A stretch of DNA of 64,000 nucleotides from Ignavibacteriae bacterium HGW-Ignavibacteriae-1 (GTDB lineage Bacteria; Bacteroidota; Ignavibacteria; Kapaibacteriales; UBA2268), in contig PGYU01000012.1 of NCBI GenBank assembly GCA_002839825.1, positions 1 to 64,000 on the forward strand, written 5' to 3'. The position numbers and the translations under genes are program-made. Shown here in pieces: positions 881-16,769 of this stretch; position 1 is the stretch's first letter; each line of letters starts with the position of its first letter. Below the pieces are notes generated by a model, which was not told the DNA's origin, did no database searches, and saw nothing but the letters and a program-made list of their open reading frames with translations.

Positions 881-1758
881 CGCGCTTGCATTATTGCGGC
901 TTCGAGCGTATTGTACATCAGCATCGTGATTGTCATCGGTCCAACTCCGCCCGGAACAGGTGTAATGAGCGAGACTTTGTCATATACATCATTGAAATCT
1001 ACATCACCCGTCAAACGATAGCCTTTTTCGGTGCCGGGAGCTTCAACTCTGTTCGTGCCTACGTCAATTATCACAACTCCCTCTTTAATCATATCTCTTT
1101 TGATGATTTCAGGTGCTCCTGCAGCGGCTATCAAAACATCCGCTTGGCGAGTATAATATGCTATATCCTGTGCGGCAGTATGGCAAATTGTGACTATCGC
1201 ATTTGCGTCTTTGTTCTTTTGGTATAACAAGTTCGCAATCGGTTTACCCACGATATTGCTTCTGCCCAATACTACTGCATGTTTGCCTTTGAGCGATACA
1301 TTGCTCCTCTTCAATAATTCCATGATTCCGGCGGGTGTGCATGCTTGCAAGCAAGGTATTCCGGCAACTAATTTGCCCACATTTACGGGATGGAATCCGT
1401 CAACGTCTTTGTCAGGATTGATTCTCTTGATGACTTCCATATCGCTTACATGCTTCGGTAATGGCATTTGCACAAGTATTCCGTGTATGTCGGGGCGATT
1501 GTTCCACTCATCAATCATTGCTAATACTTGCTCTTGGCTTGTCGTTTCCGGCAAACGCTCAATAAGCGAATAAAAACCAAGCTTTTCGCATGTTTTTGCT
1601 TTCATTCCCACATAAACTTCCGATGCAGGGTCATTGCCCACTATCATCAATGCAAGTCCCGGAATTATTCCGGTACTTTCTTTAAATGCCGTTGCCTTTG
1701 AAAAGATTTCTTCTCTGATGTCTTGGGAAATTTTCTTCCCGTCAATAATTTTTTCCAT
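877..1758 (-). CDS. folD: Bifunctional methylenetetrahydrofolate dehydrogenase / methenyl-THF cyclohydrolase
   Basis: FolD interconverts 5,10-methylene-THF, 5,10-methenyl-THF and 10-formyl-THF in the cytoplasm, supplying one-carbon units for purines and initiator formyl-Met. The 293 residues match the normal family length of about 285-300. The catalytic Tyr/Lys pair lies in YVGMK (Tyr49, Lys53). The folate-site motif MPLPKHV, the nucleotide-binding motif GRSNIVGKP and the C-terminal PGGVGPMT signature are all present. It is the upstream gene of a two-gene minus-strand operon with the pseudouridine synthase, and it is divergent from dnaE across a 158-bp gap that probably holds both promoters. 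Confidence 0.97.
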   Translation of the reverse strand: MEKIIDGKKISQDIREEIFSKATAFKESTGIIPGLALMIVGNDPASEVYVGMKAKTCEKLGFYSLIERLPETTSQEQVLAMIDEWNNRPDIHGILVQMPLPKHVSDMEVIKRINPDKDVDGFHPVNVGKLVAGIPCLQACTPAGIMELLKRSNVSLKGKHAVVLGRSNIVGKPIANLLYQKNKDANAIVTICHTAAQDIAYYTRQADVLIAAAGAPEIIKRDMIKEGVVIIDVGTNRVEAPGTEKGYRLTGDVDFNDVYDKVSLITPVPGGVGPMTITMLMYNTLEAAIMQAR

Positions 1759-1916
1759 ATTTTAATTTGCTCTAATATAAGACTTTTACAAAATCCAAAA
1801 TACGATTTTTCGACTTAACTTTGACCGTTTAGAAAAATTTGTTGAAAACTTTTCAACTGAAATCAATATCTTGTACTTGAAAAAATTACTAATCAAAATT
1901 AAGTTTCGAGTCAAAA

Positions 1917-4900
1917 ATGTCATCTTACGTTCATTTACACAATCACACTCATTATTCATTATTAGATGCTGCTACAACTCCATCTCAGCTAATTGACGCT
2001 GCTATTGCAGACGGACAAGAGGCAATCGCATTGACTGACCACGGCAATATGTTTGGTGCAGTCGAATTCTTCAACTATGCCAAAAAGAACTCTATCAAGC
2101 CCATTATCGGAATGGAAGGTTATATCTCCGTCGGTTCTCGCTTTGAAAGAATCGCTACAAACAAAAACGAAAAAATCCGCAACTATTTTCATATTCTCTT
2201 GCTCGCCAAAGACCAACAAGGCTACAAAAATTTGATTAAGCTCTCTTCTTTGGCATATACAGAAGGTTTTTACTATCGCCCACGAATTGACAAAGAATTG
2301 TTAGAAAAGTATCACGAGGGACTGATTTGCACTTCAGCATGTATGGGAAGTATGGTAAACGCTTGGATTTTAGATGGTAATTACGAAAAAGCCTATTCGG
2401 AAGCAAAATATTATAAAGACATGTTTGGAGATGATTTTTATCTCGAAATCCAAAATCATGGACTGGAAAATGACCCTTTGATTCTGGAAAAAGTTCCCCG
2501 TATGGCTCGTGAATTGGACATCAAAATGACTGTCAGCAACGATATTCATTACCTCAAACCCGAACACGCTATTGCTCATAACGTTTTGCTTAGTATCAAA
2601 GATGCAAATCCATCGAACGGCAAGTTCATGAATATTCTCGAGCTCCGCTATGGTAAGCCGGAATTTTACTTCAAGTCCACAGAGCAAATGAAGCAGCTAT
2701 TCAAGGACTACCCCGATGCAATTGCAAATACAGTCGAAATCGCCGACAAATGCAATTTCGAAATTGATAAAACACGCGTTTTTCCTGATTTTCCATTACC
2801 AAAGGAAACAGAGTCAACGAATTTAGATGATTATTTACGCGAACTTGTTTATGAAGGTTTAACCAAAAAATACAATCCGGTTACGGATGAAATCCGCCAA
2901 AGAGTAGAATACGAATTGCAAGTAATTATTGACATGGGATTTTCGGGCTATTTTTTGATTGTGTGGGATTTCATAGTGGCAGCAAATAGGCTTGGCGTCC
3001 GAGTCGGTCCCGGTCGTGGTTCTGTCGTTGGCAGTGTCGTTGCATATGCTTTAGATATTACACTTGTTGACCCATTGCCTTATGATTTGCTTTTTGAAAG
3101 ATTTCTAAATCCCGAACGCTTCACCATGCCTGATATTGATATTGATTTCAACGATGAAAAGCGCGGTTTGGTAATTGATTATGTAAAGAATAAATATGGC
3201 GAAAAAGCTGTAGCACAAATCGTTACATTCGGAAAATTAACAACTAAAGCTGTTATTACCGATGTCGGGCGCGTTTTAGGTGTTGACCTAAGCACCATTC
3301 GGAAAATTACTAAGTTAATCCCTGTCAATTTGGGTAAAGTAACGCCTCTCGAAAAAGCCCTTGAACTCAAAGAATTACATTGGGTGAAAGATTCCCAAGA
3401 CCAAAAAATCAAAGATTTGATTGAATATTCCTTATTGCTCGAAAACAAAAATCGCCATACAGGTATTCACGCTGCCGGGATAGTAATAACAAAAGGGGAA
3501 ATAACCGATTATGTTCCGGTTTATAAGCCTAAGGAAACTGACGAAGCCGTTGTAGATATGGCTACTCAGTATAGTATGGGTGAACTGGAAGACGTCGGGC
3601 TCTTGAAAATGGACTTTCTCGGACTCAAAACACTTTCAATTATTGACCATACACTTGATATGATTGAAAAAAATCATGGTTTGCGGATAGATTTGGAAAA
3701 AATTGATTTTGAAGATAAGTCAACATATGACATGATTTCCGAGGGCGATACAACTGCAATATTCCAATTTGAATCCGACGGTATGCAAGAATACCTCAAA
3801 CGTCTCAAACCTCATAACCTCGAAGAACTTACGGCAATGAACGCTTTATATCGTCCGGGTCCGATGGAAAGCATTCCACTTTTTATTGACCGCAAGCACG
3901 GTCGCAAGTCCATAACTCTTCTTCACCCGATTATGGAAAAAGTGCTCAAAACAACTTATGGTATCATCGTTTATCAAGAGCAGGTTATGCAGTTGGTGCA
4001 AGTCATTGGCGGCTTTTCGCTAGGACAAGCCGATATTTTGCGTAGAGCTATGGGTAAGAAAAAAGTCAAAGAAATGGAAGCCATGAAACCGGAGTTTGTC
4101 AGAGGTGCAGCAGAAAAAGGCATTTCAAAATCTACAACTATGGAAATTTGGGATTTGATTAATAAATTTGCTGATTATGGATTCAACAAGTCACATGCTG
4201 TAGCTTATTCATATCTCGCTTTCCAAACAGCATGGCTCAAAGCTCATTACAGAGCAGAATTTTTCGCTGCAAATATGACTTCGAAACTCAATGAGTTATC
4301 CCAAATTATCAAACTTGTCGAAGAAGCCGAAAAATTCGGAATTTCGGTTGTGCCTCCTGATATTAACAAATCTGATTCGGTCTTTGTGGTCTCGGATAAT
4401 AAAATTTACTTTGCCTTATCTGCACTGAAAAATATCGGAGTTTCTGCAGTCCAACATATCGTAGAAATGAGGCAAGAAAAGCCATTTGCTTCATTTTTTG
4501 ATTTCGTCCGGCGAATTGATGCGAAATATATTAACAAACGTGGGCTTGAATCTCTTGTTTGTAGCGGTGCATTTGATTCTATCGAAAATAATAAACGTCG
4601 CGCCCTATATGATTCAATCGAATTGGCTCTCGAATTTTCCAAACGTGTCAATGATGGTTCTGATGGTGCTGAGAGCTTGTTTGGAGCCGATGTGGTTGAA
4701 ATTGACGTCGTAGAACCTACGCTTCCAGATGTTGATGAATGGTCGGAACGTGAAAGGCTCAAACACGAATTCGATGTAATGAATTATTATGTTACAGGTC
4801 ACCCACTCAATTCATATGAACCATTTATAACAGCTTTTTCCACAAAATTGGAAAATGGTGACGTGAGTAATCCCATCGGTTCGAGTTTGAGTTTTTGCGG

Positions 4901-9712: not shown

Positions 9713-10488
9713 GAAAATTTTTGATTTTCGCATTGCTAATTATCATTTGTGCGGCATGTGCACCGAAAGAAAAGCCACTAATCATAGCACTTTCAAAGGG
9801 TGCAGGCTCGGAAAGCTACGAGAAATATGAAAAATGGCTCAAAAGCACCAATCCAAATATCGAATGCATTGATTTGTTTTTTATTGATAAAGACGAAGCT
9901 CTGAAAGTTCTCGAAAGGGCAGATGGCGTTGTTCTCACAGGTGGTCCCGATGTTCATCCATTTCATTATGGCAAAGATTTCGACACATCTCGTTGTGAAA
10001 TTGACTTAGTTCGCGACACTCTGGAATTTGAAATTATTCGAATTGCCCGAAGCAAAGGGATTCCTATGCTCGCTGTGTGCCGAGGCGCCCAAATTATCAA
10101 TGTAGCTTTTGGCGGAACTTTGATAGTAGATATACCCGAAGATACTGATTCAGAGGTGATTCACCAAGTTGAAGAGGGCGATGCCATGCATGAAATTATT
10201 ATCGAAGACAGCTATCTTTCGAAAATTTCCGGGGTCAGAACAGCATATGTAAATAGCAATCACCATCAAGCGGTTGATGCTCTCGCTGCCGGATTGAAAG
10301 CTACGGCTCGAACTGCGGACGGAATTGTCGAAGCATTCGAATACACTGACCAAAAATCAAATTTCATGATTGCCGTTCAGTGGCATCCTGAGAGAATGGA
10401 TAAGTCAGACACTTTATCTGCGAGCATTGCGAAAGAATTTTTGCATCATTCCGAAAAATTCAGACAAGCGAAATCGCTTACAAAGTAA
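9709..10488 (+). CDS. Lipoprotein with class I glutamine amidotransferase / peptidase C26 domain
   Basis: This 259-residue protein has a lipoprotein signal (MRKFLIFALLIIICAAC; lipidated Cys17), so it should be anchored on the periplasmic side. The rest resembles gamma-glutamyl-GABA hydrolase (PuuD-like, peptidase C26). The nucleophile elbow AVCRGAQ holds Cys124, and the C-terminal motif QWHPE supplies His and Glu. GGPDVHPFHY is the usual oxyanion-side segment. Family members hydrolyse gamma-glutamyl amides. A periplasmic lipoprotein form suggests scavenging of gamma-glutamyl compounds or a cell-wall substrate, which is inference. It is translationally coupled to lpxK and overlaps the convergent downstream gene by 11 bp. 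Confidence 0.85.
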   Translation: MRKFLIFALLIIICAACAPKEKPLIIALSKGAGSESYEKYEKWLKSTNPNIECIDLFFIDKDEALKVLERADGVVLTGGPDVHPFHYGKDFDTSRCEIDLVRDTLEFEIIRIARSKGIPMLAVCRGAQIINVAFGGTLIVDIPEDTDSEVIHQVEEGDAMHEIIIEDSYLSKISGVRTAYVNSNHHQAVDALAAGLKATARTADGIVEAFEYTDQKSNFMIAVQWHPERMDKSDTLSASIAKEFLHHSEKFRQAKSLTK

Positions 10489-12439
10489 ATTCTAAAGTCA
10501 CAAATACTCTGCTTTCGGCATTTCCCGCTATTTCATCATAAGCGGAACTGACCGATTTGACGTAATTTTTCGATGTATCCGCATATCTCAAACGCAAAGT
10601 CAGTTGCTGAATTGGCTTAAGATTTACATAAATGAAGCTCCGGTTTCCTGCCCCGAACAATGCAGGAGAATTTGAATAGCCGGGCATAACCGACTCGTAT
10701 TGCCAAATTGATGAATTATACGAATCTGTATCAAATAATGAAATTCGACCACCAAAAGTTAAATAATCCGTCGCTTCAGCTTTGATTTCAAAAAATGCCC
10801 CAACGCCACTTTCATTTGGAATTTTGCTCTCATACTCGAGATAAACATATTCCAATCTGCACCTGAACATCAATCGCGGGTTCGGTTTGTATGCCCAATC
10901 AGCCCGCAATTGATATTTATCTTTCTGGACTAAATGCCTCAAATCCTCAGAATCAGTCACTGCGGATGTTATTTCCTTATGTCGCCCTTTGAAAGTTACC
11001 AGAATTCGTTCCAGCCCCGAATACTGCAATTCCAACATCTTGTCCGTTCCTTTGATAGTGCCCGGGATAGTATATGTTCTACCATGGCTTCGGAATAAGT
11101 CAATATATGTGTTCAAAACGACAGAGTTTGATGCTCGGATACGCGATCCGAAATATAAACCACTTTCGTTAGCCGGACTGTAAAATTCTCCGAAATTATT
11201 GCCGTAAGGACTTCGGAAACTTTTGTCATAATTTCTGTAATGCATTGCGAATTCAATATCTTTCAGCTTGTAAATAGCTGCTAATTTAGCTCCGAGATTT
11301 TGTTTGGCATCGAAACCAAATTCGCCGCCCAACATGAAATCATAATATCGGTAAAATGAATAGACGGAACCTAGCAAACCTTCCTTACCATTAAAAGTTG
11401 AAATTGACTGGGAATTAATCGTTTTTGAAAATTCAACATACATACTATTAAATCCCAAAGTGAAATTCGTGCGGACAAATTCAAGATTCATTCCGCCAAT
11501 TTCTTCTACCACAGCATTCTGTTTCGCAATTTCATTTTCAGTGCGATACAAACCGCTGATATAAATTGATGTTATTTCGCCGCTTTCTTCGTCCAAACTA
11601 CCTGCAAGATTTTTGTAAGAATAAAAGGCTCTGATATTCAAATTTGTATTTTTGCCAAGGAAAATATTTGAAGTGCCGCCCCAACCTCTGAAATTGCCAT
11701 ATTGAAGTGATGAGCGCCACGGATTGAAGCCATTTCCACGTTGAAATGCAGCATCTATAGCGTCCCATGATTTATTTTGGCTGAATGGTGCCCAAGTTAG
11801 TAAACCCATTCCGCTATTAAAACTGAAATCGCCAATTATTAATCGCGCATTTTTGGAATGCAATCCTAAATGGAAACTTGTGAAACTTTCAGAATGAATT
11901 TCTCCCGGCTCTTTTTTAACTAATACGCCACCGTAAAAGTCCGCAATTTCAGTGTCTTGGCTCAATAGCAATCTATTATACAAATCATACGATGGTCCCG
12001 CATAAATTTCCTCTTCAATGCCTCTGGTTTCCTGCAATCGCTCTCTGAATCTGCTTCTGAACTGAATACTTCTGCCTTGAGATTTTCCACGAATATATGT
12101 AGTTTCTTTCAGAATCAATTCAATTTCATGAGGAATTTCGAGCATTCTGCAAATTTCCTCGATTGATATTTCCGGATTTTTATCTACAAGTGAAATAATG
12201 TTATCCGCCATTATCAAATCAATCCCGGGAATTCGAGACAAATCCGCATTAGTCACATTTCCGAGATTCATTTTGTTTTCGCGAAGATATTCGAGCATGG
12301 TTAAATCAGGATTTTCATTAGTTTCAATTGCGATTTCCTCGAAATATTTGCCCTCGTCATATTCTTGCGCTTTTATCTTGAACGTAGCGAATATGCAAGG
12401 TATCAGACAAATCACGCAATATTTGAATATGATTTCCAT
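10478..12439 (-). CDS. Exported protein with helix-hairpin-helix N-terminus and outer-membrane barrel
   Basis: This 653-residue protein starts with a signal peptide ending KIKAQ. Residues about 50-110 contain a ComEA-like helix-hairpin-helix (ADLSRIPGIDLIMADNIIS, then a second LEIPHEIELIL unit). The remaining roughly 520 residues look like an outer-membrane beta-barrel, with alternating aromatic strands and a terminal strand ending VFVTLEFTL. Similar HhH-plus-barrel proteins occur in Bacteroidota, but I know of no assigned function. HhH motifs usually bind DNA, so a role in DNA uptake at the outer membrane is possible though unproven. It lies 7 bp behind the barrel gene at 12447-13262 and is probably in its operon. 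Confidence 0.75.
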   Translation of the reverse strand: MEIIFKYCVICLIPCIFATFKIKAQEYDEGKYFEEIAIETNENPDLTMLEYLRENKMNLGNVTNADLSRIPGIDLIMADNIISLVDKNPEISIEEICRMLEIPHEIELILKETTYIRGKSQGRSIQFRSRFRERLQETRGIEEEIYAGPSYDLYNRLLLSQDTEIADFYGGVLVKKEPGEIHSESFTSFHLGLHSKNARLIIGDFSFNSGMGLLTWAPFSQNKSWDAIDAAFQRGNGFNPWRSSLQYGNFRGWGGTSNIFLGKNTNLNIRAFYSYKNLAGSLDEESGEITSIYISGLYRTENEIAKQNAVVEEIGGMNLEFVRTNFTLGFNSMYVEFSKTINSQSISTFNGKEGLLGSVYSFYRYYDFMLGGEFGFDAKQNLGAKLAAIYKLKDIEFAMHYRNYDKSFRSPYGNNFGEFYSPANESGLYFGSRIRASNSVVLNTYIDLFRSHGRTYTIPGTIKGTDKMLELQYSGLERILVTFKGRHKEITSAVTDSEDLRHLVQKDKYQLRADWAYKPNPRLMFRCRLEYVYLEYESKIPNESGVGAFFEIKAEATDYLTFGGRISLFDTDSYNSSIWQYESVMPGYSNSPALFGAGNRSFIYVNLKPIQQLTLRLRYADTSKNYVKSVSSAYDEIAGNAESRVFVTLEFTL

Positions 12440-12446
12440 GCTGCGG

Positions 12447-13262
12447 TCAGTAGCTTAGTGCCATTCCTATCATTGGCGATATGCCCAAAATGCTGTTATA
12501 TTGGGTCAATAGCACAAAATCAATCGAGTAAATATCTTTTAATAAAATTCCGGCTTCAACGAATGAGGGCGAGTTTCTCCATGCAATTCGCAAATCTGCA
12601 AATTCAAATACCGAATATTTGAAAGCCAAAGCTATTGCGGATTTGTGCGTAATATCAATTATTGCATCGGCGTCTATTTGGGCGTCTTCCATAATTTTGT
12701 AAGAAACACCAACCACTGCAGTTTGCCAAATATATAGCGAGTCGCTTCCGTAAGACGATTTGAGCAAATTCCGTAAGTAAAATCCGGCATCCAAATCGTC
12801 GCTGATTGATAATTTGCTCCCAATATGTACCGAAAATGCTGATTGCGACGAGAATCTGTCAATGTTGATTGTGCTGTAATCGGCTGCAATTCCCACGAGA
12901 ATTTTATCAGATAATTTAGTACTATAGCCCAATTCCGCAGAATATTCATTGTATAAATTATTACCGATGTAGAAAAAATTTGAATTTATAAAATGCTTAT
13001 CCGACAATCCGAACTGAAGATTGATTTCTGCAGGTGTAAGCTCTTTGATGCCGAATCTATAAGGTGAAATTCTTAAATCCGAATTAAATGATTTGCCGGT
13101 TAATTCAGACGCAGGATTTTTTGAATACTTGAATAATGAGGCACTAGCAGTTGCTGATGGAATTGGGTCCATAAGGTATTTGCCGAAAATCTGCGAAAGT
13201 AAGATTTCCGGATTCAGCAAAAACAGAACAAGAACAATTTTGAAAATTTGGCACGGATTCAT
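12447..13262 (-). CDS. Exported beta-barrel protein, PorV/PorQ-like in style
   Basis: The protein has 271 residues with a signal peptide (IFKIVLVLFLLNPEILLSQ). The mature part is made of strand-like segments with regular turns (GIAADYSTINIDRF, FSVHIGSKLSISDDLDAGF, AIALAFKYSVFEF), and it ends ISPMIGMALSY with a terminal aromatic residue, as expected for an outer-membrane barrel. The early motif GKYLMDPIPSATASASLF and the following NPA segment resemble the N-terminal region of PorV/PorQ-type proteins. I would not assign a specific T9SS subunit. It is the first gene of a two-gene minus-strand unit and is divergent from the porD-like gene. Confidence 0.65.
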   Translation of the reverse strand: MNPCQIFKIVLVLFLLNPEILLSQIFGKYLMDPIPSATASASLFKYSKNPASELTGKSFNSDLRISPYRFGIKELTPAEINLQFGLSDKHFINSNFFYIGNNLYNEYSAELGYSTKLSDKILVGIAADYSTINIDRFSSQSAFSVHIGSKLSISDDLDAGFYLRNLLKSSYGSDSLYIWQTAVVGVSYKIMEDAQIDADAIIDITHKSAIALAFKYSVFEFADLRIAWRNSPSFVEAGILLKDIYSIDFVLLTQYNSILGISPMIGMALSY

Positions 13263-13376
13263 AAATGATTTTCCGACAAATCTAAACTTTTAGTAAATTA
13301 TTTCGTTTTAGTTTTAGTACTTTGTGTGAAATTACTTATTTTTAGTAAAATAATCAAGAACAAAATTGGAAATATC

Positions 13377-14276
13377 ATGAATTATTTGAAAATACTTGTT
13401 GTCTTTATGTTAGCGACGCTTGCCATCAAAGCTCAAGAGATTGAAGCTACTGTTTCGGTAAATATGGAGCCTATTCCCGAGGAATACCGGACAAATATAA
13501 TGTCGTTGCAAGGCGATGTTGAAACATATCTCAACAACCAAAGATTTACGAGCATCGAATGGGAGGGACCCAAAATCCCGATTGAAGTAAATATTGCAAT
13601 AACCGGTGGCATGCAGAATAATTATTCCGCGCAGTTGTTCATCGCTTCGAAACGCTATATCTACGGGCAAGAAGGCGGTATGTCCGTAGCTTTAAAATTG
13701 ATTGACCGAACTTGGGTTTTTGAATACAATCGTGGAGCTATGCTATCCTACAATCCTTCGCGATATAATGAATTTACTTCTTTGCTCGATTTTTACATGC
13801 TTTTAATCATCGGATTTGACCTTGATACATATGAATCGCTCAGCGGAAGCCGCGTGTATGATTTAGCCCGTACAATTGTGACTATGGGTGCAGCTTTTGG
13901 CGCCGATGGTTGGCAAACAACTGCTACTCCGGGCGAATTTACTCGATATACGCTAATTTCGGAATTGACCGATATGAAATTCGAGCCTTTGCGCAAGTTA
14001 GTCTTCAGCTATTATTATGACGGCTTGGACGTTATGGCAGAAGACCGCGAACAAGGACTTTCGAATTTAGCATTTGTAATCCAAGAAATGGCAGATTTCA
14101 AAGACAAAAAACTCTCAAGTCCTTCGGTGTTGATTCAAGCATTTTTCGATGCGAAGGCGCCGGAATTAGCTGATATGTTCAAAGGCTACAAAAAACACCC
14201 GGGCGTTTTCCGTGATTTGATGTATTTGGACCCTTCAAATTCGCAAATTTACGACGAAGCTCAACAGGGTAGATAA
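13377..14276 (+). CDS. porD: DUF4835 family protein, PorD-like T9SS component
   Basis: This 299-residue exported protein (signal MNYLKILVVFMLATLAIKAQ) matches DUF4835. Family features are the EIEATVSVNMEPIPEEYR opening, the strand IPIEVNIAITG, the TWVFEYNRGAML-like segment and the DSYESLGG-type region (DTYESLSGSRVYDLA) with GWQ soon after. DUF4835 proteins are named PorD in T9SS annotations and are conserved in Bacteroidota, although their biochemical role is not settled. The ATG at 13377 is used because it gives the signal peptide and has GGAAA upstream; an in-frame ATG-like start at 13326 would add 17 residues with no export signal. Its stop abuts the stop of the convergent sppA gene. Confidence 0.85.
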   Translation: MNYLKILVVFMLATLAIKAQEIEATVSVNMEPIPEEYRTNIMSLQGDVETYLNNQRFTSIEWEGPKIPIEVNIAITGGMQNNYSAQLFIASKRYIYGQEGGMSVALKLIDRTWVFEYNRGAMLSYNPSRYNEFTSLLDFYMLLIIGFDLDTYESLSGSRVYDLARTIVTMGAAFGADGWQTTATPGEFTRYTLISELTDMKFEPLRKLVFSYYYDGLDVMAEDREQGLSNLAFVIQEMADFKDKKLSSPSVLIQAFFDAKAPELADMFKGYKKHPGVFRDLMYLDPSNSQIYDEAQQGR

Positions 14277-16769
14277 TTATTTGACTATATCCCAATAATC
14301 TATAGAAAGCATTGGCATCGGTTTGCCGTTGTTTTGAAGCAAGAAATCTAATGTAGTGATTTCTTGCTTTGTTTTTTCAATGTTGATTCCTACCATGTTT
14401 GAAATAAATGGTATTAGGTCGAACATCTTAGGTGTCGGGAATTCATCAATTGTATATCTTTCGCCTTCTTTGATTCCTGCTTTTTCCTTAGCTAATTGAA
14501 TTGCATCATCCAAACCGCCGATTTTATCTACCAAGCCATTTTTCAATGCATCAGCTCCAGTCCAAATTCTGCCTTGAGCTACATTTTCGACATTATCTTT
14601 GGACATTTCCCTTCCATCAGCTACAAGAGTGATAAATTTGTCGTATAATGCCATGATTTCAATTGTGCGTTGGTCAAATTCATCATCAGTCATATTTCTT
14701 AGCGGCAATCCGATTGGAATAATCGGTAATGTATAAGATTGCCCCATATCGGAATATTTGCCTCTTTTAACCATATCGTAATTTATGCCGAGCGTATCTT
14801 TCAAGCCTTTGTCGTACACCCAAGCACCAATGACGCCAATCGAACCTGTAACAGTGAATGGCGAAGCTATAATGTCGTCGGCATTCATCGAAAGCCAATA
14901 TCCGCCGGAAGCTGCAACCATTCCTTGAGTTACAATTACAGGTTTTACTTCCTTTTTAACTTTAAAAAATGATGACCACGAAGTGCCGCCGGAACTAAAC
15001 GAGATAACTCTAACGTTGTCTTCTCTTTGGTTGAGTAATTTTGAAATATAATCTGAAGCCATTGCATCACCACCGGGAGAATCAACTCTTAAAATCAATG
15101 CCGAATATGAGGATTTTTCTAATATCCATTTGATTGTTTCGGCTGCTTCACGTGCTTTGATTCCTTCGTCCATAGCGCAAACGCCGGTCAGATAATAAAT
15201 CGCGATTTTCTTCTTGGGTGCGCCCCATTGGTCGTCTATTGGTTCTTGGAGATATTGCCTGTATCCGATTGGAACTACTCCAGCTATCTTATAATCTTTT
15301 GATGTTTTCTTTTGCATATCCATCCATCGCCCCATTTCGTCTGCCAATTTTTCTGCAATCGCATCGCTCGGGAAATAGCCGATTTTCGAATCCACAATTC
15401 GGTCAAAGTCGCTTTGGCTGATTCTTCTGGATTTGCAGATTTCATCGCGTGTATTTTCATACCACGAATCTATCAATGCTCGGCGTTGTTCACGTTCTCC
15501 TTCGGACATGTCTGTGCGAGTATAGTCTTCGACTGCCGATTTGTACTTGAAAAATCTCAATTCTTCAAATCCTAGACCCAAATTATCGAACATTCGCTTA
15601 TAATAGCTTCTGCCCGAAGCATATCCTTTTATGCTGAGGTAACCCATCTCATCAATGATGATTTTATCGGCTACTGATGCTAAGTGGTACAAATCCATAG
15701 AGGCTCTGTCAATATATGCCACAATTGTTTTGCCCGAATTTTTGAACTCGAGTAATTTATTTCTAATTTCCCAAATCATTGATTTATTAGCGGAAAAATT
15801 GGTCAAATTGACCACCATGCCTTTTATATACTTATCTTCGATTGATTCATCAATAAGGTGTAACAAATCAATCAATGTCATCGAATCGTCAAACCAGCGA
15901 TTTCGTTGATATTTAATCGTACCTGACAAATCCAATTCTACAAACATATCCTCAGACAAAACATCATCGGTGAATGTCCGGTCATTTCCAAACATTCTTA
16001 ACCCAATTGCAGATTGTGCGAATCCGTCCGAGGAATTTGAAACCTGGTTATAACCCATTCCATATCTTCCGAAACTGACATCTACCCCCAATGAATATAT
16101 TTCATCGCTGAAATAGCGCCCATTGGCTCTGATTCCGGGAGCAAATTCCCATGACAAGCCACCGCTGTAGTTCACTTCTGACAAATTTTTATCATCGAAT
16201 AATGACGCATCAACAAAAAATGTCATCGGGTAATCGGTAAATGGTCGGAGTGCAATTTCAGCAACCGTTTCGGCATTTGAATTCTTCAAGGAGAAGCCGT
16301 AATTGAAAGCTAGGGATAAATTTCCATTGGGTCGAATTAACATCCCAACTTGCATCATGTCACCGAAACCGTATTTACTTGCATGAGAGTTTGACCAACC
16401 GTATGAAACGCCCATCCCAAAAGTTCTGCTGCCAAAGCTTTGTGATATACGGTAGTCATAGGCAGGTTTGCCGTCGTAAAAACGCGACATTACACCAAAC
16501 CCGGTTCCACCAAGTCCGGTGAACAATCCCCAACGCTTAAAACCAATTATATTTTCTTGGCTTGAAATTATCCCCAACATGTCCAAGCTGCTTTGATTGT
16601 AGTTCAATATTGCAGGATTGTCAAATCCATACAGACCAAATTTGAAAGCTCCCGATGATGCTTGCATAAAATCGCGCATTTCGTAATAGGTGGTGAAGCT
16701 TTTTTGTGAAAATGAATTGTAGGTAGAAATCAGCATCAATCCCGTGATGAGAAGTAGTATTCGTTTCAT
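14277..16769 (-). CDS. sppA: S49 signal-peptide-peptidase-like protease fused to an N-terminal barrel-like domain
   Basis: This 830-residue protein has two S49 peptidase halves, as in the 67-kDa SppA type. The general base is expected at Lys410 (in FKYKSAVEDY) and the nucleophile at Ser621 (in GMVAASGGYW). The 211-residue spacing is close to the Lys209-Ser409 spacing of E. coli SppA. The unusual part is the first 280 or so residues: a signal peptide ending SFSQ, then a Gly/aromatic-rich strand pattern like an outer-membrane barrel, with no transmembrane helix. Most SppA proteins are instead inner-membrane anchored. The protease is probably periplasmic and tethered to the outer membrane, degrading peptides or misfolded envelope proteins; this is inference. 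Confidence 0.88.
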   Translation of the reverse strand: MKRILLLITGLMLISTYNSFSQKSFTTYYEMRDFMQASSGAFKFGLYGFDNPAILNYNQSSLDMLGIISSQENIIGFKRWGLFTGLGGTGFGVMSRFYDGKPAYDYRISQSFGSRTFGMGVSYGWSNSHASKYGFGDMMQVGMLIRPNGNLSLAFNYGFSLKNSNAETVAEIALRPFTDYPMTFFVDASLFDDKNLSEVNYSGGLSWEFAPGIRANGRYFSDEIYSLGVDVSFGRYGMGYNQVSNSSDGFAQSAIGLRMFGNDRTFTDDVLSEDMFVELDLSGTIKYQRNRWFDDSMTLIDLLHLIDESIEDKYIKGMVVNLTNFSANKSMIWEIRNKLLEFKNSGKTIVAYIDRASMDLYHLASVADKIIIDEMGYLSIKGYASGRSYYKRMFDNLGLGFEELRFFKYKSAVEDYTRTDMSEGEREQRRALIDSWYENTRDEICKSRRISQSDFDRIVDSKIGYFPSDAIAEKLADEMGRWMDMQKKTSKDYKIAGVVPIGYRQYLQEPIDDQWGAPKKKIAIYYLTGVCAMDEGIKAREAAETIKWILEKSSYSALILRVDSPGGDAMASDYISKLLNQREDNVRVISFSSGGTSWSSFFKVKKEVKPVIVTQGMVAASGGYWLSMNADDIIASPFTVTGSIGVIGAWVYDKGLKDTLGINYDMVKRGKYSDMGQSYTLPIIPIGLPLRNMTDDEFDQRTIEIMALYDKFITLVADGREMSKDNVENVAQGRIWTGADALKNGLVDKIGGLDDAIQLAKEKAGIKEGERYTIDEFPTPKMFDLIPFISNMVGINIEKTKQEITTLDFLLQNNGKPMPMLSIDYWDIVK

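Follow-up and report, generated by a model that had tools for sequence, protein, structure and literature searches.

The usual view places SppA in the inner membrane; whether it serves to clear signal peptides or to defend the cell against membrane-active peptides is still debated. The locus described here raises the question of whether an SppA protease can be held in the outer membrane by a barrel, and of what it would do there. The gene lies in a stretch of 64,000 nucleotides from Ignavibacteriae bacterium HGW-Ignavibacteriae-1 (contig PGYU01000012.1, positions 1 to 64,000), which is referred to below as the window. The reading preferred here, and considered likely, is that the gene encodes an SppA anchored in the outer membrane, with active sites turned towards the periplasm, and that at this membrane it degrades released peptides that resemble signal peptides or are membrane-active.

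The gene and its protease part

The gene occupies the interval 14277-16769 that had been given in the initial annotation, where the strand was left unstated; the plus strand of this interval is full of stops, and the 830-codon open reading frame is on the minus strand. Its parts are the following:

14277..16769, minus strand: gene for the FadL-like barrel and tandem S49 (SppA) protease, 830 aa (open reading frame, translation, S49 domains)
16707..16769, minus strand: cleavable signal peptide, residues ~1-21 (from the sequence, with putative cleavage before Gln22)
15984..16706, minus strand: hatch and predicted 14-strand FadL-like barrel, residues ~22-262 (AlphaFold2 model, VIA comparison)
16611..16619, minus strand: NPA hatch motif as in FadL, residues 51-53 (73-row alignment; hhalign)
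15288..15746, minus strand: first S49 domain (Pfam PF01343, 78 bits)
15540..15542, minus strand: catalytic Lys410 (aligned to E. coli K209; invariant in 73/73)
14952..15029, minus strand: 26-residue insert, residues ~581-606, directly before the second S49 domain (20-row and 73-row alignments)
14472..14957, minus strand: second S49 domain (Pfam PF01343, 147.8 bits)
14907..14909, minus strand: catalytic Ser621 (aligned to E. coli S409; invariant in 73/73)
14280..14360, minus strand: conserved C-terminal tail, residues 804-830 (consensus L-K-F-R-L-x-x-N-G-x-P-M-P-x-L-P-x-E)

A scan with one peptide pattern over 84,980 species, each represented by a single genome, found at least 80 loci, a lower bound on the reach of the family because it comes from a single pattern. 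The loci listed belong to Kapabacteria, Ignavibacteria, Balneolia, Gemmatimonadota, a few otherwise-labelled metagenome-assembled genomes (MAGs), Saccharospirillum and Natronospirillum. Eight of the 80 (L046, L047, L055, L061, L081, L082, L083, L099) were cut or interrupted and were left out, and the window protein together with the 72 loci complete enough to align make up the 73 rows used below. A chance open reading frame is rejected on three grounds: a protein from the window's genus is 89% identical to the 830-aa fusion, 229 of the 323 codons changed between the window and the genus mate L035 are synonymous, and 72 other complete loci have the same architecture. The nearest relative, L035, comes from a MAG that is labelled Desulfobulbaceae yet matches the window's genus, and the label is probably wrong.

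The protease part has the feature of tandem SppA, with PF01343 found twice in one chain. As the initial annotation had proposed, Lys410 and Ser621 form an SppA-like pair; they align to Lys209 and Ser409 of E. coli SppA, with the dyad split between both S49 domains, and both residues are invariant in all 73 full-length family rows. The Lys-Ser spacing is 211 residues in the window protein, 200 in E. coli SppA and 188 in the family median, and the observed value falls within the family range of 185-214. The surplus in the window protein is due to the 26-residue insert, which is modelled with low confidence and is confined to two rows, those of the window protein and of its genus mate (2/20 and 2/73 in the two alignments). 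In terms of family models, the window protein scores 288.7 bits with NCBIfam TIGR00705 (SppA_67K), just under the equivalog cut-off of 311.45, and passes the TIGR00706 domain model (202.9 versus a cut-off of 155.45). A Foldseek search with the full-length model matched 3bez with an E value of 3.5e-37 and a TM score of 0.80 by target length, and among the 50 matches listed there were only S49, ClpP-type and related chains. The full-length model, built on 20 rows, is weak in the catalytic stretches, with pLDDT below 50 at residues 381-401 and 409-420. In the C-terminal tail, the column of residue 822 holds Pro in 69/73 rows and Ser in the window protein, and column 815 holds Gly in 66/73. The fused SppA is conserved, and the enzyme is probably active.

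The predicted barrel and its orientation

Because the full-length search had returned only protease-type chains among the matches listed, the N-terminus was modelled alone (AlphaFold2, residues 1-288, alignment of 73 rows). The resulting model has a mean pLDDT of 87.3 and a pTM of 0.79, and shows a closed barrel of 14 strands between residues 61 and 259; the same 14 strands are present, at lower confidence, in the full-length model on 20 rows. The case for a barrel-like N-terminus is thus stronger than the initial annotation had described. A closed barrel of 8 to 12 strands had been named there as support for the idea; a closed barrel is indeed predicted, with 14 strands.

When the barrel model was compared with known structures using VIA-align, the best match was FadL (2r89_A, Z 24.3, rmsd 3.2, 228 residues aligned), and the type 9 translocon chain 8gl6_F, which we take to be PorV, matched with Z 23.4 over 241 residues from residue 21. 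Chains from three Bacteroidota BAM complexes (9n2d, 9hjm, 9hiv) also matched, with Z values of 19.4-21.2. To judge from the entry titles and from two papers (PMC12611786, PMC12578637), in which BamG is described as a 14-strand FadL-family subunit, these chains appear to be BamG. The first barrel outside the FadL family was OmpG with Z 16.8, so that the FadL, PorV and BamG chains stood above all other barrels listed. Foldseek was less specific with the same model (best E 4e-6).

The hatch is part of this likeness, with the FadL and PorV structure alignments including model residues from 21-33 onward. Asn51 and Pro52 are invariant in 73/73 rows and the exact NPA motif is present in 69/73; in hhalign it coincides with the NPA of E. 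coli FadL, within an overall match that is not significant (probability 1.5%). In terms of sequence families, Pfam matched a barrel family in one of the 73 rows (HP_OMP, E 0.0012) and no FadL-type family at E 0.1, a PDB profile search with the barrel gave a single match at E 0.12, and hhalign could not align the barrel with the PorV-like protein encoded nearby at 12447-13262. A barrel-profile search of the window's own genome found the fusion gene only. Since there is no significant sequence match to FadL, the barrel is called FadL-like in fold and is not filed as a member of FadL.

The remaining evidence on the membrane comes from the family alignment. The alternation of side-chain character along the barrel strands exceeded that of all 2000 within-strand shuffles. 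Membrane helices were sought as the maximum 19-residue mean hydropathy after residue 30, which exceeded 2.0 in 0/73 family rows and 1.6 in 9/73; in all nine TM-type SppAs compared, among them E. coli SppA and one (L001) from the window's own genome, the maximum was 2.53-3.34. At the expected place of signal cleavage an x-x-[AGS]-Gln site is present in 54 of 72 family loci and a lipobox-like match in 2 of 72. The signal peptide and the lack of a later membrane helix, as read in the initial annotation, are thus borne out.

Outer-membrane barrels with an even number of strands have both ends in the periplasm. With 14 strands and both barrel ends there, the protease part would therefore lie in the periplasm too. 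The pattern of conservation is consistent with this orientation: the hatch is conserved (mean entropy 1.27 bits), conservation is higher in the periplasmic half of the barrel with its turns than in the outer half with its loops (Mann-Whitney p 6e-7), and the loops assigned to the outside are 1-14 residues long across the family. Arg146, Arg175, Glu208, Arg258 and Arg264 are present in 73/73 rows, and the first four are all placed on the periplasmic side in the predicted orientation. Exceptions to the pattern are Asp187 (67/73) and Arg218 (71/73), which are charged and are assigned to the outer half. From the predicted structure and these comparisons we infer an outer-membrane location and a periplasm-facing protease, which is the arrangement that the initial annotation had suggested.

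Perhaps the barrel is an inert anchor, for which any outer-membrane barrel would suffice, with the enzyme being an ordinary periplasmic SppA. We give this explanation considerable weight, somewhat short of even. The barrel occupies the place of the TM helix of canonical SppA, and with extracellular loops as short as these it seems to bind nothing outside the cell. However, the strong conservation of the hatch and of the periplasmic rim, with its five invariant charged residues, goes beyond the needs of an anchor, although structural need alone could account for part of it.

A more active role is possible but doubtful, in which the barrel would work as a FadL-type intake, taking in hydrophobic or amphipathic peptides from the outer membrane through a lateral opening and leading them past the hatch to the protease below. 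The FadL fold with its NPA hatch and the conservation of hatch and rim favour such a route, and a lateral opening is given as a hallmark of FadL barrels in PMC12611786, but the short strands of the fusion barrel may close that opening. In its fullest form, which we put forward only tentatively, the protein would be a two-part peptide disposal machine in which a miniature FadL barrel draws hydrophobic or membrane-active peptides sideways from the outer membrane and passes them via the NPA hatch to an SppA tetramer beneath, and which would serve some lineages as their only SppA.

Distribution of the family and its gene neighbourhood

Most of the barrel-SppA family is known from MAGs only. The same fusion is present in the cultured strains Saccharospirillum salsuginis KCTC 22169 and S. 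impatiens DSM 12546 (L109, L110), for which reason a MAG chimera is rejected as its source. Among the genomes of 60 relatives, barrel and S49 were found in one match or one frame in 23 (in G002 with an internal stop), and fragments of the gene on short or cut contigs in three more (G009, G015, G038). Of 296 genomes sampled evenly from the window's phylum, 27 were matched; with G326, a 290-residue open reading frame without S49, left out, 26 carry the barrel gene, 23 as strong and 3 as divergent matches. The tandem S49 part was in the same frame in 17/17 strong and 3/3 divergent matches checked.

The divergent loci L136, L137 and L138 (G317, G096 and G305) are frames of 881, 841 and 836 codons that join an NPA barrel-like part to tandem S49 and are without the conserved C-terminal tail. 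They could possibly represent a second branch or a second origin of the fusion.

In a quick tree of the S49 parts, in which three of the nine TM-type SppAs have long branches, all 73 rows fall on one side of a branch that separates them from the TM-type SppAs (SH-aLRT 100). The Gammaproteobacterial rows are nested inside a Balneolia group, which suggests that the fusion was transferred.

The window's genome also has an ordinary TM-anchored SppA (L001). Of the 26 relatives with a whole or fragmentary barrel gene, 25 have a further S49 place, and G012 has none among the matches listed. In more distant genomes the barrel form may stand alone: no other S49 passes the family cut-off in 6 of 20 more distant carriers and none in 3 of 9 others (9/29). 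The copy of a genus mate (L007 in G002, match 1501-3993) has a stop inside the barrel part, and the TM-type SppA of G002 also shows a stop.

PorD (13326-14276, plus strand; NF052317 over the cut-off) and the SppA fusion are convergent and adjoin with no base between the gene ends. Further along are a 271-aa PorV/PorQ-like barrel protein (12447-13262, minus strand), with a weak NCBIfam match far under the cut-off, and a 653-aa exported protein (10478-12439, minus strand) with an apparent helix-hairpin-helix stretch and, after it, a probable outer-membrane barrel; neither Pfam nor NCBIfam matched the 653-aa protein at 0.1.

This neighbourhood could point to a factor for type 9 secretion or for the processing of exported proteins, as could SprA, the type 9 translocon, which accompanies the barrel gene in 22 of 27 genomes, including all 18 from the window's phylum (carriers only were counted). 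We regard such a role as improbable. No SprA was found in G345 or in any of the 4 Gammaproteobacterial carriers, and gene order around the fusion is not conserved, the commonest neighbour cluster being an ABC-type ATPase (by sequence) at 15 of the 81 loci listed. PorD and PorV-like genes are not conserved neighbours at those 81 loci. A role dedicated to type 9 secretion is therefore rejected, and with neighbours not kept and carriers without SprA the link to exported-protein processing suggested in the initial annotation is not supported; the tie to type 9 secretion is weak.

The least credible reading, which we think very improbable, is that the protein is soluble or lies in the inner membrane, with a beta-sandwich or some other non-barrel domain at its N-terminus. 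It would suit a barrel that no sequence family names (Pfam, PDB profile), but the prediction gave no soluble beta-sandwich, the outcome named beforehand as contrary to a barrel; it gave a 14-strand barrel of high confidence that matches FadL, PorV and BamG chains at Z 19-24, and there is no TM helix.

Proposed role and comparison with known systems

The preferred reading of an outer-membrane-anchored SppA can be set out as follows. The signal peptide would direct export of the fusion, after which the N-terminal ~240 residues, with a hatch at their start, would form a short FadL-like barrel of 14 strands in the outer membrane. The tandem S49 part would lie in the periplasm, where a short conserved linker would tie it to the rim of the barrel on that side. 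By analogy with E. coli SppA we infer an active Ser/Lys enzyme that is probably a tetramer, with short hydrophobic or amphipathic peptides (released signal peptides, membrane-active peptides) as the substrates that it would cut at the inner face of the outer membrane. At this site the enzyme would meet the same released peptides and, in addition, peptides directed against the outer membrane. The conserved C-terminal tail could occupy the active site as the tail of B. subtilis SppA does.

Studies of other SppAs are in line with such a role. According to a review, E. coli SppA is a TM-anchored tetramer that keeps its active site at a distance from the inner membrane and cuts signal peptides after their release (PMC9360617). 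B. subtilis SppA cleaves off its own C-terminus, and mutants have no secretion defect and are sensitive to antimicrobial peptides (PMC7568657). In Flavobacterium columnare, deletion of a 589-residue TM-type sppA resulted in more vesicles and stopped gliding (PMC13236525), which shows only that SppA matters to the state of the envelope in the wider group.

No description of this architecture was found in the literature searched, which consisted of openly licensed PubMed Central papers. Being conserved over several phyla, the build is probably real, and it is an apparently undescribed form of SppA; going by the structural models, it is probably a new domain architecture of a known enzyme, with a FadL-like barrel replacing the inner-membrane helix. 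If this is true, SppA can function without a site in the inner membrane, and the genomes with the barrel form alone offer a natural experiment that separates the two proposed jobs of SppA.

In summary, the fusion shares features with four known systems. With FadL, TodX, PorV and BamG the barrel shares 14 strands, the N-terminal hatch with NPA and the fold (Z 19.4-24.3), but those chains have ~345-444 residues, whereas the fusion barrel has ~200 residues and tiny loops, is joined to a protease and has no significant sequence match to them. B. subtilis SppA is likewise a Ser/Lys enzyme, and its self-removed C-terminal part (PMC7568657) is comparable in place to the conserved tail of the fusion, but it is a TM-anchored octamer with a single S49 domain in a Gram-positive bacterium. 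Another counterpart is E. coli SppA (protease IV, 67K tandem S49; 3bez/3bf0), which has the tandem domains, the Lys209/Ser409 dyad and the protease fold in common with the fusion. In contrast to the single N-terminal inner-membrane TM helix that anchors the E. coli enzyme, the window protein has a predicted barrel in its place, and it also differs in its separate tree branch and its own C-terminal tail motif. Omptins such as OmpT are outer-membrane barrel proteases in which the barrel itself carries the active site, at the outer surface. The fusion is likewise both protease and predicted outer-membrane barrel, but omptins are without an S49 domain, and if the preferred reading is true, the fusion is a periplasm-facing outer-membrane protease that is built quite differently from them.
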